Shown one piece after another: positions 43,231-51,497 of a stretch of 64,000 nucleotides of DNA (the first letter of the stretch is position 1; each line of letters begins with the position of its first letter). The stretch spans positions 3,567,581-3,631,580 of the forward strand of contig NZ_CP063169.1 in NCBI RefSeq assembly GCF_014960965.1, read 5' to 3'. Source of the DNA: Ruania alkalisoli. GTDB lineage: Bacteria; Actinomycetota; Actinomycetes; Actinomycetales; Beutenbergiaceae. The position numbers and the translations under genes are program-made. The notes beneath the pieces were generated by a model. That model saw only the letters and a list, made by a program, of their open reading frames with translations, was not told the DNA's origin and did not search any database.

Positions 43231-44409
43231 TCAGGCGCCCCAGCCGGCCTGCTGACCGCCCACGCGCTCGGCGGCGATCTGGTCGAGGTATCCGGAGGCG
43301 TTGAACGCGGCGTAGGGGTCCTCGGCCAGCCCCTTCTCGGCGCGGACCTCGGCGAGCAGTGGGCGCACGTCGGTGTTGTAGGCGTCCATCAGCACGGCGT
43401 TGGCACCGAGCACGTCACCGGAGATCTGCGCCTCGCGCAGGGCTTCGCGGTCGACGATCAGTGCCTTGGCCGTGGCTTCCTGCACGTTCATCACCGAGCG
43501 GATCTGGCCAGGGATCTTCGGCTCGATGTTGTGGCACTGGTCGAGCATGAAGTTCACGCCCGCCTCCTCCTTCAGCGCGTCGTTGGTCACGATCTCGTTC
43601 ATGATCCGGAACAACTGGAAGGGGTCCGCGGCGCCGACGATCAGATCGTCATCGGCGTAGTTGCGGGAGTTGAAGTCGAACGCGCCGAGCTTCCCGAGCC
43701 GCACCAGCTGGGCGACGATGAACTCGATGTTCGTCCCCGGCGCGTGGTGACCGGTGTCGAGCACGACGGCGGCCTGGTCACCCAGGGCGAGACAGTGCAC
43801 CAGGGAGGTGCCCCAGTCAGGGATGTCCATCGTGTAGAAGTACGGCTCGAAGAACTTGTACTCGATGAGCAGCCGGTGGTTCGGGTCGAGCGCGGCGTAG
43901 ATCTCCTGCAGGGATTCGGCGAGCCGATCCTGCCGGCCCCGGATGTCGTCCTGGCCGGCGTAGTTGGTGCCGTCGGGGAGCCAGAGCTTGAGGTCGGTGG
44001 ACCCGGTGGCGCGCATGACGTCGATGCACTGCTTGTGGTGGTCGATCGCCTTCTTGCGGATGGCCGGGTCCGGATGGGTCAGCGAGCCGAGCTTGTAATC
44101 GTCCTCCTGGAACAGGTTGGAGTTGATCGCCCCGATCTGCACGCCGAGATCGCTCGCGTGCGCAGCGAGCGCCTCGTAGTCGTCGACCAGATCCCACGGG
44201 ATGTGGAGGGAGACCCGCGGCGCAGCGCCAGTGTAGCGATGCACCTGCGCGACGTCGGCGATCTTCTCGAACGGGTCCCGCGGTACACCGGGGGTGGAGA
44301 ACACCTTGAACCGGGTGCCGGAGTTTCCGAAGGCCCATGAGGGGAGCTCGATGGTCTGGGCGGCGAGGGCTTCGCGCACCTGCGGGGCGGCGGTGGCCGA
44401 GGTGGTCAT
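43231..44409 (-). CDS. rhaI: L-rhamnose isomerase
   Basis: 392 residues from ATG 44409 (GGAG upstream). TIM-barrel isomerase of the Pseudomonas stutzeri type rather than E. coli RhaA: LPSWAFGNSGTRFKVFSTPG, LIEYKFFEPYFYTMDIPDWG (metal Glu), VVLDTGHHAPGTNIEFIVAQ (His) and GAFDFNSRNYADDDL (Asp). It converts L-rhamnose to L-rhamnulose. First gene of the operon rhaI - aldolase/dehydrogenase - rhaB. A perfect LacI-type palindrome lies about 45 nt upstream of the start. Confidence 0.93.
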   Translation of the reverse strand: MTTSATAAPQVREALAAQTIELPSWAFGNSGTRFKVFSTPGVPRDPFEKIADVAQVHRYTGAAPRVSLHIPWDLVDDYEALAAHASDLGVQIGAINSNLFQEDDYKLGSLTHPDPAIRKKAIDHHKQCIDVMRATGSTDLKLWLPDGTNYAGQDDIRGRQDRLAESLQEIYAALDPNHRLLIEYKFFEPYFYTMDIPDWGTSLVHCLALGDQAAVVLDTGHHAPGTNIEFIVAQLVRLGKLGAFDFNSRNYADDDLIVGAADPFQLFRIMNEIVTNDALKEEAGVNFMLDQCHNIEPKIPGQIRSVMNVQEATAKALIVDREALREAQISGDVLGANAVLMDAYNTDVRPLLAEVRAEKGLAEDPYAAFNASGYLDQIAAERVGGQQAGWGA

Positions 44410-44455
44410 GGGAGTGCACTCCAAGTCCGGTGGTGACGACGATCGACATCAACTC

Positions 44456-44584: not shown

Positions 44585-47500
44585 GTGCCCGCCGCCAGCT
44601 TGCTGCCCTCGCTGCTCGCCTCCGACCGCGCCACCCCCGCCCGCACCCTCATCGACATCTTCACGGAGTCGGTGAACGCCCACCCCGAGGCCCCTGCCCT
44701 CGAGAGCGGCCTCACCCAGCTCTCCTACCGCGAGCTCGCCGAAGCCGCTGCGGAACTGGCCGATCGGCTCACCGCGCTCGGTGTGCGCCGCGGCGATCGG
44801 GTGGGGGTACGAGTCAGCTCCGGAACCACGGAGCTGTACATCGCCATCCTGGGCACCCTGATGGCCGGCGCCGCCTACGTACCGGTCGATGCGGATGACC
44901 CACCGGAGCGGGCGCGCACCGTCTTCACCGAGGCGGCCGTGATCGCCATCATCGGCAACAGTCTCGAGATCACGGCCACCGCTCCCACCGTGCAGTACAC
45001 CACCCCCGACGGCGACCCTCCCCCTGCCGCGCACAGCGCACCTTCCACTGTGATCACCGGCGCAGGTGCATCCGCAGACGCCCCCGAGCGCACCCCACGC
45101 CCGACCGATGACGCGTGGATCATCTTCACCTCGGGTTCGACCGGAACACCGAAAGGCGTCGCCGTCTCCCACCGCAGTGCCGCCGCCTTCGTCGATGCCG
45201 AGTCCCGCCTCTTCCTCACCGCCGAGCCGATCGGGCCGGGAGATCGGGTGATGGCCGGGCTCTCGGTCGGTTTCGACGCCAGCTGTGAGGAGATGTGGCT
45301 CGCCTGGGCGCACGCCGCCTGCCTGGTGCCCGCACCACGCTCGCTGGTGCGCTCCGGTGTGGACGTCGGGCCATGGCTGACGGCCAACGACATCACCATC
45401 GTCTCCACCGTGCCCACCCTGGTGGCGTTGTGGCCACCAGCGTCGCTCGATCGTGTCCGGCTGGTGATCCTCGGCGGCGAGGCGGCACCGGCCGAGCTCG
45501 CTGCCCGGCTGCAGGGGCCCGGCCGCGAGGTGTGGAACACCTACGGCCCCACCGAGGCGACCGTGGTGGCCTGCGCAGCGCCCCTGGACGGGTTCGAGCC
45601 GGTCCGGATCGGACTGCCGCTGGACGGGTGGGACCTCGCCGTCGTCGATCACGACGGAGTCCCGGTAGCCGAGGGTGAGACCGGTGAGTTGATCATCGGC
45701 GGAGTGGGGCTGGCTCGCTATCTCGATCCGGACAAGGACGCCGAGAAGTACGCACCGGTACCGAGCCTGGGCTGGGCGCGCGGGTACCGCTCCGGCGATC
45801 TGGTCAGGAACGACCCGGCCGGTCTGGTCTTCGCCGGGCGGGCCGACGATCAGATCAAGCTCGGCGGCCGGCGGATCGAGCTCGGCGAGATCGACGGTCA
45901 GCTGCTGCGACTTGCCGGCGTGGCCGGCGCCGCCGCCGCCGTGCGCACAACCTCCGCCGGCAACCAGGTGCTGGTCGGCTACCTCACCGTCGAGGAGACC
46001 TTCGATCAGAGCGCCGCCCTCGCTCTGCTGCGCGAGCGCATGCCGGCGGCCCTGGTTCCGCGCCTCGCCGTGGTCGACACCCTTCCCACCCGCACCTCCG
46101 GCAAGGTGGATCGGGACGCTCTGCCGTGGCCGCTGCCCAGCGCGCCGAGCACGACCGCACAGTGGTCCCCTACCCAGGAGTGGCTGGTGGGCATCTGGCG
46201 CGATGTGCTTGCCGCGGATCCGGCCGATGCCGGAGCGGACTTCTTCGACCTCGGCGGCGGTTCGCTCACCGCGGCACAGACCGTCGGGCGGATCCGGGCA
46301 CGCCATCCGGAGGTCGCCGTCGGGGACATCTACGCCTACCCGACCCTGGGCGCACTGTCGGCCTATCTGGACAGCCTCGTCCAGTCCAGCACGACCACCA
46401 CACGCACGAACCGCGCGGTCTCCCCCATCCGCACGAGGACCAAGGTGGGGCAGATCCTCGCCTTCTACCCGCTGCGCGCACTGGCGACGCTGCGGTGGCT
46501 CGCCTGGCTGCTGCTCGCCGGCGCGCTGCTGCACCCGGCACTCGGCTGGTGGCCGGCGCCCCCGGTCTGGCTGGTGGCCCTCAGCACTGCACTGTTCCTC
46601 CTCCCGCAGGGCCGGATGCTCGTCGCGGCCGGGCTGATCCGGGTGGTGCTGCGTGGCATCCAGCCGGGCACTTACCCCCGCGGCGGGAAGGTCCATCTGC
46701 GGTACTGGCTGGCCGGCCGGATCCAGGATGAACTGGCTGCGACGGGTCTCGCCGGTGCCGCATCGATCACCTGGTACGCCCGCCTGCTCGGCGCCAAGAT
46801 CGCCTCGAACGTGGATCTGCACTCCCTGCCACCGGTCACCGGGTTCCTCCGGATCGGCAAACGCGCCTGCGTCGAACCCGAGGTCGATCTGACCGGTGCC
46901 TGGATCGATGGTGACCGGGTGCATCTGGGCCGGATCGCGATCGCCGCCCGGGCGCGGATCGGTGCCCGGAGCACACTCGGCCCAGGCGCCACAGTGGGCC
47001 GGGGCGCCGAAGTGGCTGCGGGATCGTTCGTCGCCGGCAGGGTGAGGGCCGAGCGGCTGGTCTCCGGATCGCCCGCTGAGGTCACCGGCTCCGCCCGGGG
47101 ACCCTGGTCGAAGCGAGCCCCGGCCGGTGGCCGTGCCTGGGTGGCGGGCTACGCCGTCATCGGCATGCTCCTGGCCGCCCTGCCCTGGTGCGCCGCCGCG
47201 GTCGGAGCGTTGGTGCTATGGCCGGCGCTGCGTCCCTCGACGGACCTGAGCCACGCGTGGGCGAGGGTATGGCCGTGGTTGCCGCTGGCCGCACTGGCCG
47301 GATACGCGACCCTGATGATCCTGGTTATCGCCGTCGTGCGGATCCTCGCCCCGGCCGTCCGCAGCGGCCCGGTACCCGTACGCTCCGGGCGGGGGCTGGC
47401 GGTGTGGGCCACGGTACGGCTCATGGACGAAGCCCGCGACTGGCTCTTTCCGTTGTACGCCGGAGCACTCACGCCGTGGTGGCTGCGAGCCCTCGGCGCC

Positions 47501-48553
47501 CGTGTGGGCCGCGGCGTCGAGGCCTCCACGGTGGTGTTGATCCCGAAGTTGACGCAGATCGGCGACCAGTCCTTCCTCGCGGACGACACCCTCGTGGGCG
47601 GCTACGAGCTCACCGGTGGGTGGCTGCGAGCCGAACGCGTGAAGATCGGCAAGCGCGCCTTCCTCGGCAACTCCGGGATGGCCGCACCCGGGCGGAAGAT
47701 CCCGAAGGCCTCTCTCGTGGCCGTCCTCTCCGCGGCACCCAAGCGCGGCACTGCCCGGGCGGGGACGTCGTGGATCGGCAGTCCGCCCACCCAGCTGCGC
47801 CGCGAGGGCGGGCCGGCCGACGCGACGCGCACCTATGAACCAAGCGCCCGTCTACGAGTACTGCGTGGACTGGTCGAGACCGGCCGGGTGATCCCCCTGT
47901 TCGGCTCCGTGTGCCTCATGCTCATCGTGGGCACCACACTGCTGGCGCTCCTCGGCGGTTCGGCCGGTGACACCTGGTCCTGGACGGGCCTCGTCGCCGC
48001 AGTGCTGCTCGGCCCGCTGGTCCTGCTGCTCGCCGGTCTGATCGCCGCGGGAATCACCGTGGCCGCGAAGTGGCTCCTGGTGGGTGCGCACCAGGTCAGC
48101 GAGCACCCGCTCTGGAGCGCAGCGGTGTGGCGCGGCGAGCTGGCCGACACCTTCACCGAAGTTCTCGCCGCGCGTTGGTTCTGCTCCCTGGCGCAGGGCA
48201 CCGTCGCCCTGAACGTATGGTTCCGCGCCCTCGGGGCCAAGATCGGCGACGGCGTCTGGTGCGATACGTACTGGCTTCCCGAACCGGATCTGGTGGAGTT
48301 GGGCGCAGGATCATGCATCAATGCCGGATGCGTGGTGCAGACCCATCTGTTCCACGACCGTGTGCTCGCCATGGACCGCGTGGTCATCGGCGCCGGAGCC
48401 ACTCTCGGGCCGAACAGTGTGATCCTGCCTGCTGCGCATCTCGACCGCGATGCGACAGTAGGGCCGGCATCGCTGGTGATGCGCGGTGAATCCGTACCGA
48501 GCCGCACCCGGTGGCTCGGCAACCCGATCGGCCCCTGGGAGGAGGGAGCGTGA
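44585..48553 (+). CDS. Pls/PosA-family single-module nonribosomal peptide synthetase (predicted poly-lysine-type synthetase)
   Basis: 1322 residues from GTG 44585, with no Shine-Dalgarno and possibly leaderless. Adenylation domain (about 15-515): IIFTSGSTGTPKGVAVSHRS, NTYGPTEATV, YRSGDLV, GRADDQIKLGGRRIELGE and Lys507 in TSGKVD. Carrier domain with Ser560 in DLGGGSLTA. Then six membrane segments (about 630-652, 658-680, 850-880, 895-920, 1104-1125, 1132-1162) separating three soluble domains with hexapeptide-like character. This A-T-(TM2-C)x3 layout, without condensation or thioesterase domains, is that of epsilon-poly-lysine synthetase. My hand alignment of the binding pocket reads D231 A232 E235 S274 I295 G297 T319 V327 V328 K507. 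Confidence 0.9.
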   Translation: MPAASLLPSLLASDRATPARTLIDIFTESVNAHPEAPALESGLTQLSYRELAEAAAELADRLTALGVRRGDRVGVRVSSGTTELYIAILGTLMAGAAYVPVDADDPPERARTVFTEAAVIAIIGNSLEITATAPTVQYTTPDGDPPPAAHSAPSTVITGAGASADAPERTPRPTDDAWIIFTSGSTGTPKGVAVSHRSAAAFVDAESRLFLTAEPIGPGDRVMAGLSVGFDASCEEMWLAWAHAACLVPAPRSLVRSGVDVGPWLTANDITIVSTVPTLVALWPPASLDRVRLVILGGEAAPAELAARLQGPGREVWNTYGPTEATVVACAAPLDGFEPVRIGLPLDGWDLAVVDHDGVPVAEGETGELIIGGVGLARYLDPDKDAEKYAPVPSLGWARGYRSGDLVRNDPAGLVFAGRADDQIKLGGRRIELGEIDGQLLRLAGVAGAAAAVRTTSAGNQVLVGYLTVEETFDQSAALALLRERMPAALVPRLAVVDTLPTRTSGKVDRDALPWPLPSAPSTTAQWSPTQEWLVGIWRDVLAADPADAGADFFDLGGGSLTAAQTVGRIRARHPEVAVGDIYAYPTLGALSAYLDSLVQSSTTTTRTNRAVSPIRTRTKVGQILAFYPLRALATLRWLAWLLLAGALLHPALGWWPAPPVWLVALSTALFLLPQGRMLVAAGLIRVVLRGIQPGTYPRGGKVHLRYWLAGRIQDELAATGLAGAASITWYARLLGAKIASNVDLHSLPPVTGFLRIGKRACVEPEVDLTGAWIDGDRVHLGRIAIAARARIGARSTLGPGATVGRGAEVAAGSFVAGRVRAERLVSGSPAEVTGSARGPWSKRAPAGGRAWVAGYAVIGMLLAALPWCAAAVGALVLWPALRPSTDLSHAWARVWPWLPLAALAGYATLMILVIAVVRILAPAVRSGPVPVRSGRGLAVWATVRLMDEARDWLFPLYAGALTPWWLRALGARVGRGVEASTVVLIPKLTQIGDQSFLADDTLVGGYELTGGWLRAERVKIGKRAFLGNSGMAAPGRKIPKASLVAVLSAAPKRGTARAGTSWIGSPPTQLRREGGPADATRTYEPSARLRVLRGLVETGRVIPLFGSVCLMLIVGTTLLALLGGSAGDTWSWTGLVAAVLLGPLVLLLAGLIAAGITVAAKWLLVGAHQVSEHPLWSAAVWRGELADTFTEVLAARWFCSLAQGTVALNVWFRALGAKIGDGVWCDTYWLPEPDLVELGAGSCINAGCVVQTHLFHDRVLAMDRVVIGAGATLGPNSVILPAAHLDRDATVGPASLVMRGESVPSRTRWLGNPIGPWEEGA

Positions 48554-49878
48554 CCCGAACACAGACCCCGGTGACACCCGGCACGACCGATACGTACATG
48601 CCCGGACATGGCGACTCGGGCTACGCCGTCGACCACTACCAGCTGGACCTGACCTATCAGCCCCGCAGCAACCTGCTCGACGGCGTGGCTGAGGTGCGGC
48701 TACACACCCTCACCGAGACCTCCGCACTGCGCTTCGACCTGCACGAGCTGCGCGTGACGAAGGTGTCCGTGACGGGCGCCACGCTCGGCAAGTACACCCG
48801 CAAGCCGACGCGGCTCACCGTCGCCCTCAAGAAGCCCGCACCCGCCGGATCGGAGCTCGTCGTCCGCATCGAGTACGGGGGCAACCCCAGGCCGGTGCGC
48901 TCGGCCACCTTGGGCGAGGCAGGCTGGGAGGAACTCACAGACGGGGTGATCGTGGCTTCACAGCCGCACGGGTCGCCGTCGTGGTTCCCGTGCAACGACC
49001 AGGCACGCGACAAAGCCCGCTACGACGTGAACCTCACCGTGCCCGCCGACTACACCGTGGCCTTCAGCGGTGAGACGCGGGAGGTCAGACGCCGTGGCTC
49101 ACGCCGGACATGGACGTTCCAGCAGCGCCACCCGATGGCTCCGTACCTGGCCTCGGTGCAGATCGGGAAGTACCGCGAGCAGTCGCTGGACGGACCCGGC
49201 GCAGCGATCCGGATCCTCCGGCCGGAGGGACTGCCCGCGGACGCCTTCGCTGCGTCCTTCGGCCGGCAACGCGAGATGCTGACGTGCTTCGAGGACGCGT
49301 TCGGGCCCTACCCCTTCGACTCCTACACCTGCGTGATCACTGACGACCCGTTGGAGATCCCGCTCGAGTCACAGGCCCTGTCGACTTTCGGACGCAACCA
49401 CTGCTCAGCGGACTGGGACGCCGTCCGGCTCATCGCACACGAACTGTCCCACCAGTGGTTCGGCAACGCCGTCACGGCGAGCTCCTGGCGCGACATCTGG
49501 CTGCACGAAGGGTTCGCCTGCTTCAGCGAATGGGTGTGGTCCGAGCACTCCGGTGGGCCAGGGATCGCCGAGCATGCGGCCCGCCAGCACGAGCGGCTCA
49601 GCACACTGCCCCAGGACCTGCGGCTCAGCGATCCGGGTGCGGCGGACATGTTCGACGACCGCGTCTACAAGCGCGGGGCACTGACGCTGGCGGCCCTGCG
49701 GGACCTGATCGGCGCCGAGGACTTCGGGCGGCTGCTGCACCGCTGGGTCGCGCAGCACCGCGGGGGGGTCGTCTGCACCGAGGACTTCATCTCACTGGCA
49801 CAGGAGATCAGCGGACGGTCGCTGCGCGACTTCTTCGACACCTGGCTCCACCAGGTCACACTGCCTGCGTGGCGGTGA
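48550..49878 (+). CDS. M1-family zinc aminopeptidase, partner of the Pls-type synthetase
   Basis: 442 residues, GTG start in a GTGA overlap with the synthetase gene. Zinc site His297-Glu298-x-x-His301 in IAHELSHQWFGNA, plus Glu320 in LHEGFACFSEW, the exact M1 spacing. The substrate-binding GxMEN is replaced by LESQALS, as in a compact M1 branch; the protein is about half the length of classical members. No signal peptide, so cytosolic. Zinc aminopeptidases that degrade epsilon-poly-lysine are known from producer strains. Tight coupling suggests it trims the synthetase product or protects the cell from it. Confidence 0.88.
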   Translation: MTRTQTPVTPGTTDTYMPGHGDSGYAVDHYQLDLTYQPRSNLLDGVAEVRLHTLTETSALRFDLHELRVTKVSVTGATLGKYTRKPTRLTVALKKPAPAGSELVVRIEYGGNPRPVRSATLGEAGWEELTDGVIVASQPHGSPSWFPCNDQARDKARYDVNLTVPADYTVAFSGETREVRRRGSRRTWTFQQRHPMAPYLASVQIGKYREQSLDGPGAAIRILRPEGLPADAFAASFGRQREMLTCFEDAFGPYPFDSYTCVITDDPLEIPLESQALSTFGRNHCSADWDAVRLIAHELSHQWFGNAVTASSWRDIWLHEGFACFSEWVWSEHSGGPGIAEHAARQHERLSTLPQDLRLSDPGAADMFDDRVYKRGALTLAALRDLIGAEDFGRLLHRWVAQHRGGVVCTEDFISLAQEISGRSLRDFFDTWLHQVTLPAWR

Positions 49879-50385
49879 GTTCACGCACACTCGCGCAAGA
49901 AGGCCCGCGGGTGCAGGCAGATCGTGCACCGAGAAATCGGCCACCCGGATCGAAGGCATCGGCACGCTGAGCCCCACCCCGAGCATCTTCAGGATCGCCT
50001 CCTTCGCCACCCACACCTGCAGGACGTCCTGACCGGACTCGTCCCGGTGCAGGACGAGCGTGGGGTCGATGGGTGCCGCGTCGGCGCGTTCGATATCGAC
50101 CCCGATCCGGGGAACGGGCGGGAGGCCAGCGGCGGTCACCAGGTATCCCCCGGCACGCGCGGCGGAGACGGCGATGGTGCGCTCGCCGGCACGCGCCCAC
50201 GGGCGGCCGTGGTCCGAGCCTCCGCATCGCGGGCATAGGTGGCCGATCCGCAGATCCGCTCCCGGCAGAGGCGTCAGGTCGTCGGCGAGGTGGCGGCGCA
50301 GTGCCTCGTCGGTGCCGAGGGCGGCGCGATGCCAGTGCACACTGACGGGTATGCCGGTCGGCACGGGAGCGGCCATCGCCGACAT
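49792..50385 (-). CDS. 4'-phosphopantetheinyl transferase superfamily protein
   Basis: 197 residues; the last 29 codons overlap the aminopeptidase gene antisense. Conserved magnesium and CoA motifs: IGVDIERADAAP (Asp and Glu) and VWVAKEAILKMLG (W-x-x-K-E-A). An extra CPRCGGSDHGRPW segment lies before them. It should transfer phosphopantetheine to a carrier Ser, most obviously Ser560 of the synthetase next door, as also inferred from proximity. The C-terminal tail after CVNSPP is probably a run-on. Confidence 0.85.
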   Translation of the reverse strand: MSAMAAPVPTGIPVSVHWHRAALGTDEALRRHLADDLTPLPGADLRIGHLCPRCGGSDHGRPWARAGERTIAVSAARAGGYLVTAAGLPPVPRIGVDIERADAAPIDPTLVLHRDESGQDVLQVWVAKEAILKMLGVGLSVPMPSIRVADFSVHDLPAPAGLLARVCVNSPPRRQCDLVEPGVEEVAQRPSADLLCQ

Positions 50386-50412
50386 TCTCGCAGATGCGCG
50401 CCCACGAATCGG

Positions 50413-50424
50413 TGAAACGATACA
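50413..50424. promoter_or_regulatory. LacI-type operator, probable autoregulation of the 50.5 kb lacI gene
   Basis: TGAAACGATACA differs from the rhaI operator at one position and lies about 40 nt before the regulator start. Confidence 0.6.
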
Positions 50425-50465
50425 CTCACGCGATCGGTGCAGACCCGGTACAGACGAGGAGCAAT

Positions 50466-51497
50466 ATGCCCAGGCGGAACGGCGGCCCGAGGCGCCCGAG
50501 CGTCACCGATGTGGCGAAGGAAGCAGGCGTCTCGGTCGGCACGGTCTCCAACGTGCTCAACCGGCCCGACTCCGTCTCTCCCGCCACCCGGGCCAGGGTG
50601 GAGGAGGCCATCGAGGAGCTCCGCTTCGTCCGGAACGCCTCCGCCCGCCAGCTTCGCAGCGGCGAGATCACCACCGTCGGTGCCGTGGTGCTCGATATCG
50701 CGAACCCGTTCTTCACCGAGATGGCGCGCGGGATCGAGGACAGACTCGCCCAGGACGACCACACGCTCATGCTGTGCAGTTCCGACGAGGATCCCGAGCG
50801 TGAGGCCAGATTCCTGCGCCTGTTCGAGGAGCGCGGGGTGCGGGGCGTCATCGCCACCCCCTCCCACGGCAGCCTGAACGGGCTCCTGGCGCTGCGTGAA
50901 CGCGGCACGGACGTGGTGCTGCTCGACCATACGTCCCCGGTTCCGGACATCGGATCCGTGGCCGTCGATGACGTCGGCGGAGCGTCGCTGGCGATGAACC
51001 ACCTGCTCGATCTGGGGCACACGACGTTCGTGTTCCTCAACGGCCCGCTCACCCTCCGCCAGTGTGTGGACCGGCGTGACGGCGTCATCGCCACCCTGAC
51101 CTCCCGCGGGTTCGACCCGGCCGAGGCCCTGGTCGAGGTGAACCTCGACGCCCTCAACGCCGACGCCGCCGACGCCGCCGTCCACCGGTGGCTGGCCGAG
51201 ACGACCGAACGCCCGACGGCCATGTTCTGCGCGAACGACTTCACCGCCCTGGGCGCCTTGCGAGCCCTCCGCGACTGCGGCGTCTCCATCCCGGGGGACA
51301 TGGCCGTCGTCGGCTATGACGACGTCATCTTCGCCTCGATGCTCACCACGCCGTTGACCTCGGTCCGCCAGCCGATGCACACCCTCGGCTGGACCGCCGC
51401 CGACATGCTGCTGCGCGAGAGCGAGCCCGGGCGCTCACGGCAGGTGGAGTTCGAACCGGAGCTGGTCGTGCGCGCCTCCAGCGGCTCGGCTATCTGA
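50466..51497 (+). CDS. LacI-family regulator, candidate regulator of rhamnose genes
   Basis: 343 residues from ATG 50466, behind GAGGAG. HTH SVTDVAKEAGVSVGTVSNVL at about residues 14-33, hinge, then sugar-binding domain (TTVGAVVLDIANPFFTEMAR; VVGYDDVIFASMLTTPLTSV; a full-length member). The operator copy before its own gene, with close matches before rhaI, the importer and lldD, makes it the best candidate for the repressor of the rhamnose pathway (inferred). The effector is probably L-rhamnose or a phosphorylated intermediate. Confidence 0.85.
   Translation: MPRRNGGPRRPSVTDVAKEAGVSVGTVSNVLNRPDSVSPATRARVEEAIEELRFVRNASARQLRSGEITTVGAVVLDIANPFFTEMARGIEDRLAQDDHTLMLCSSDEDPEREARFLRLFEERGVRGVIATPSHGSLNGLLALRERGTDVVLLDHTSPVPDIGSVAVDDVGGASLAMNHLLDLGHTTFVFLNGPLTLRQCVDRRDGVIATLTSRGFDPAEALVEVNLDALNADAADAAVHRWLAETTERPTAMFCANDFTALGALRALRDCGVSIPGDMAVVGYDDVIFASMLTTPLTSVRQPMHTLGWTAADMLLRESEPGRSRQVEFEPELVVRASSGSAI

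Follow-up and report, generated by a model that had tools for sequence, protein, structure and literature searches.

A three-gene unit of the actinobacterium Ruania alkalisoli very probably makes epsilon-poly-L-lysine, a well-studied natural food preservative. The unit lies on a stretch of 64,000 nucleotides (contig NZ_CP063169.1, positions 3,567,581 to 3,631,580), hereafter called the window, and consists of pls, predicted to encode an epsilon-poly-L-lysine synthetase (44585–48553, forward strand, GTG start codon, 1322 residues), an M1 zinc metallopeptidase gene (48550–49878, forward strand, GTG start, 442 residues), and a phosphopantetheinyl transferase (PPTase) gene (49792–50385, reverse strand, 197 residues). 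The reading is carried by the family membership of the synthetase, by its adenylation pocket, identical to the one in Pls of Streptomyces albulus (PDB 7wew), by its homologous C domains, by an M1 gene coupled to pls, by the single carrier and single PPTase that are left once an ACP-like and an AcpS-like frame are set aside, and by the co-occurrence of the parts within the genus; from these we infer substrate, product, chain length, export, and the roles of peptidase and PPTase. The family match, a pocket agreeing at 10/10 positions, the published pls–pldII arrangement, and the commonness of the system in the class make ordinary epsilon-poly-lysine the likely product. An earlier, sequence-only reading of this DNA had recognized a poly-lysine-type synthetase with a coupled peptidase and a PPTase, which the pocket and an end-to-end match to the Pls/PosA model bear out. 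Its further suggestion of an unstudied isopeptide homopolymer finds no support: the pocket carries the lysine code of Pls, and pls with its peptidase gene corresponds to the published epsilon-poly-lysine operon (PMC4361855, PMC8117764). The locus is a further copy of a known system and not the source of a new polymer; what it adds is the link to a PPTase, a clean insertion site, and a leaderless peptidase.

Judged from its sequence, the 1322-residue protein is a full-length member of the Pls/PosA family. The layout proposed earlier, an adenylation (A) domain and a carrier (T) domain followed by three units of two membrane segments and a C domain, agrees with the domain searches. Pfam places an AMP-binding domain at residues 26–378 (223.7 bits) and the carrier at residues 532–595 (46178–46369, forward strand; PF00550, 47.4 bits), with a GGGS motif starting at residue 557; as had been claimed, the Pfam scan lists no condensation or thioesterase domain. 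The C-terminal region (residues 623–1315) matches TIGR02353, the Pls/PosA family model, with 639.4 bits against a cut-off of 423.1 and over profile positions 3–695 of 695. This match rules out C domains unrelated to those of Pls, the outcome that had been named beforehand as a possible refutation. C1, C2, and C3 are mutually homologous (hhalign probability 97.1, 98.5, and 99.2%; blastp E 3e-6 to 1e-10). Nine family-averaged hydropathy peaks follow residue 590, at 624–642, 639–657, 664–682, 861–879, 900–918, 954–972 (weak), 980–998 (weak), 1102–1120, and 1139–1157; with an approximate number of helices, they fit three membrane pairs with a C domain behind each. The hydropathy and C-domain profiles were built without L122, L123, and 7wew.

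Among solved chains, the best match is the epsilon-poly-L-lysine synthase 7wew itself (E 3.1e-182). Comparison was extended to 97 relatives, namely the best 80 of 593 confirmed loci and 17 other genomes above the TIGR02353 cut-off, a search among relatives having placed TIGR02353 above cut-off in 18 of 39 genomes, the window's own included; given this composition, the set leans to close relatives. Reading by motif yields the pocket D A E S I G T V V K, the same that had been read by hand, and in an alignment of the 7wew core, the 97 relatives, and the window it equals the S. albulus pocket at all ten positions. The alignment with S. albulus Pls, set beforehand as a check, further gives 251 identical residues out of 353 in the A core, and a non-basic substrate is not indicated. 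DAESIGTVVK is found in 97 of the 99 rows (the window, 7wew, and 95/97 relatives). The remaining two rows are L123, whose frame has no A domain, and L122 (genome G033), a distant member of the Pls/PosA family with the pocket DFEYNGTVTK and no same-strand M1 gene downstream. Lysine enzymes are described as carrying Ala in the second pocket position (PMC10522769), and by sequence the pocket of the window enzyme is the lysine code of Pls.

The peptidase gene overlaps pls by 4 bp, its start and the pls stop sharing GTGA, so that the coupling noticed earlier, like the convergent PPTase, is found where it had been placed. Its product matches Peptidase_M1 (PF01433, 104.3 bits) and M1_N (49.6 bits) and carries HELSH-18-E; the closest solved chains are the small M1 ‘zinc metalloprotease’ 6a8z and 6iff, with residues 13–439 aligned. 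An M1 homologue lies downstream of pls on the same strand in 96/97 relatives, beginning at most 250 nt 3′ of pls in 91 and at 629–2170 nt in five; in L122, the M1 match has 24% identity only and lies on the opposite strand. Twenty further stretches were drawn from the class, with A cores at most 73% identical to 7wew; L171 and L190 were left out of the M1, PPTase, and leader counts, and an M1 homologue was found in 17 of the 18 loci retained. HExxH-18-E is kept in all 114 M1 frames (96 relatives, 17 class-set loci, and the window). To represent the S. albulus form, the 7wew core was searched against 343 genomes from the genus to which G137 belongs, and 148 of them match it at E 1e-150 or better with a top identity of 95% (90–95% in four genomes); the eight best loci, with A cores 80–95% identical to 7wew, were taken. 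All eight carry an M1 gene downstream of pls whose product is 38–40% identical to the window M1. A start codon in frame that would produce the 4-bp overlap is available in 7/8 of these 7wew-like loci and in 51/97 elsewhere (50/96 relatives and the window).

The two sets differ at the N-terminus of the peptidase. A twin-arginine-like leader is present in 8/8 7wew-like loci (L211–L218), which served as positive controls for a hydrophobicity measure with a 12-residue window and a threshold of 1.3; an earlier measure (15-residue window, threshold 1.8) scored nothing anywhere, was too strict to rely on, and was replaced. By this sequence criterion, neither a hydrophobic nor a twin-arginine leader is present on the M1 protein of the window. 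The hydrophobicity mark is passed by two of 97 M1 proteins (96 relatives and the window), one of which, L068, also has RR, read from a long upstream stretch that looks spurious, and by one of 17 in the class set, without RR. The leader and overlap counts exclude L122 and one more locus lacking an M1 match. Since the leader occurs in all 7wew-like loci, not in the window, and in nearly none elsewhere, it sets the S. albulus-like M1 form apart from that of the window, whose peptidase, lacking a leader, probably works in the cytoplasm. In S. albulus, pldII and pls form one operon with a 4-bp overlap (PMC4361855), and by position and homology the window M1 would be of the PldII type. On the trimming role that had been proposed for the peptidase, published accounts differ: repression of pldII yielded chains of more than 40 units (PMC9223678), and degrading enzymes are also reported not to set chain length (Yamanaka 2010, as cited in PMC3937719). 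A search of open-licence papers, which is no proof of absence in print, returned nothing on PldII with a signal or twin-arginine leader.

The PPTase gene is convergent to that of the peptidase, the 3′ ends of the two overlapping by 87 bases (49792–49878). Its product scores above the PF01648 cut-off (31.4 bits against 25) and matches Sfp chains weakly (E about 0.8). PF01648 is found at two places in the host genome: one is the PPTase beside pls, the other a frame of 121 aa that looks like AcpS. PF00550 is likewise found at two, one being the carrier of Pls and the other a frame, also of 121 aa, that looks like an acyl carrier protein. Apart from these AcpS-like and acyl carrier-like frames, no PPTase was found in the genome other than the one beside pls, and no carrier other than that of Pls. 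As just one of each stands outside apparent fatty acid synthesis, carrier activation is cleanly testable in this host. The same kind of literature search, with the same limit, returned nothing on a PPTase together with poly-L-lysine synthetase.

In the proposed pathway, the PPTase would load phosphopantetheine onto the T domain. The A domain would activate L-lysine and then charge T, and the three membrane-anchored C domains would link lysines via the epsilon-amine, the polymer exiting the cell. The translationally coupled M1 enzyme would degrade polymer, probably in the cytoplasm, for self-protection or turnover.

Across the class, 73 of 296 sampled genomes and 26 of 115 genera have a TIGR02353 match at E 1e-100 or better; a wide distribution of Pls homologues among coryneform bacteria, their pockets equal to that of Pls or closely resembling it, had already been reported (PMC8117764). 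Within the genus, pls above cut-off, a close M1 (78–100% identity), and a pls-adjacent PPTase co-occur in the same four of eight genomes (G000, G002, G004, and G006), while the M1 proteins of the four pls-free members are only 28% identical. The PPTase survey of the genus relied on PF01648 profile matches, of which G007 (92% complete) has none at all, AcpS included. In all four carriers, the unit sits between a rhamnose isomerase-like gene (rhaI; 43231–44424 in the window) and a lacI-type gene (50394–51497). These two genes are adjacent in the four non-carriers, where their protein matches lie apart by 228 bp in G001, 1236 bp in G007, 1189 bp in G003, and 1011 bp in G005. Over rhaI and lacI, the carriers are 87–98% identical among themselves, G001 is 85–90% identical to them, and the other three 80–81%. 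LacI-type regulators are abundant throughout G000 to G007, each genome holding 41 to 81 matches to the lacI protein of the window. A quick tree of 97 rows (without L123 and 7wew; SH-aLRT support only, midpoint root) joins the genus clade to an Intrasporangiaceae copy (99) within a Nocardioides/Ornithinimicrobium group (98); eight other members of the same family are placed at two other positions, the ninth being the omitted L123. Tree placement and site comparison together suggest that the pls unit was gained horizontally in the genus, and a loss from G001 may be considered as an alternative. Elsewhere in the sample, contigs C1 and C14 of G028 hold one full Pls-family region and, spread over separate frames, several incomplete matches to TIGR02353, a decay-like picture.

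Several observations weigh against the proposed system or parts of it. PldII is described as translationally coupled to pls and located outside the membrane (PMC9223678), whereas the window M1 has no leader. In the same source, PldII is modelled with two zinc ions at residues unlike an HExxH site, which is at odds with an M1 enzyme; the reading of PldII as M1 comes by way of the 7wew-like loci, which were chosen by A-core identity and are not known as S. albulus. The PPTase is no general part of the system, since it is found on the opposite strand downstream of pls in 26/97 relatives by tblastn (35/97 with a profile made from those matches) and beside pls in 0/18 class-set loci; moreover, G001, which has no pls, carries a second PF01648 gene elsewhere. 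Finally, Corynebacterium variabile, and C. glutamicum carrying its gene, gave no detectable polymer (PMC8117764), and the window copy may therefore be silent.

Alternative explanations can be weighed against these data. That the unit is silent or decaying, with no polymer made in the host, is unlikely, even though the C. variabile gene works and yet left no product in culture (PMC8117764), and the PPTase frame of the window extends about 28 residues farther than its G002 counterpart, reaching into the M1 3′ end on the opposite strand. All three frames are open in the window, G002, G004, and G006, the pocket is conserved in these four, and the zinc-site motif is kept in every M1 frame compared. 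A synthetase making another diamino-acid polymer (of ornithine, diaminobutyrate, diaminopropionate, or beta-lysine) is very unlikely. Such enzymes do belong to the Pls/PosA family (PMC10522769, PMC8117764), but the ornithine enzyme PosA has the pocket DMEHNGTVSK and the PDAP/PDAB enzymes carry Phe as the second pocket residue (PMC10522769), whereas the pocket in the window equals that of Pls throughout; the other three synthetases, moreover, are described in a different gene context (PMC8117764). Likewise very unlikely is a chance neighbourhood, with the M1 protein acting on other peptides: the host genome does carry two further M1 genes, but the same-strand homologue 3′ of pls in all but one of the relatives, and the low identity of the M1 proteins in pls-free genus members, speak against it.

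Beyond epsilon-poly-L-lysine synthesis by the window unit, a broader picture can be offered tentatively, with a probability somewhat short of even. A compact cassette of a synthetase, its own PPTase, and a cytoplasmic polymer-degrading M1 enzyme may move between actinobacteria as a unit, and the peptidase may occur in two forms, exported beside S. albulus-like Pls and cytoplasmic in most other actinobacteria. If true, the cytoplasmic form would imply that polymer is encountered and destroyed within the cell. The locus adds a probable epsilon-poly-lysine maker and raises a testable question, that of where the coupled peptidase acts.

Three systems invite comparison. The Pls operon of C. variabile, compared by description, yields epsilon-poly-lysine in S. 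coelicolor, and the term ‘phosphopantetheinyl’ is absent from the main text of that paper (PMC8117764). PosA of Acinetobacter baumannii belongs to the same family as the window Pls and differs by its ornithine pocket, DMEHNGTVSK (PMC10522769). Pls–PldII of S. albulus shares with the window the domain layout, the pocket at every position, the 251 A-core residues, and a coupled peptidase with a 4-bp overlap (PMC4361855). In contrast, the window has a PPTase gene beside the pair, and its peptidase does not carry the leader present in the 7wew-like loci.
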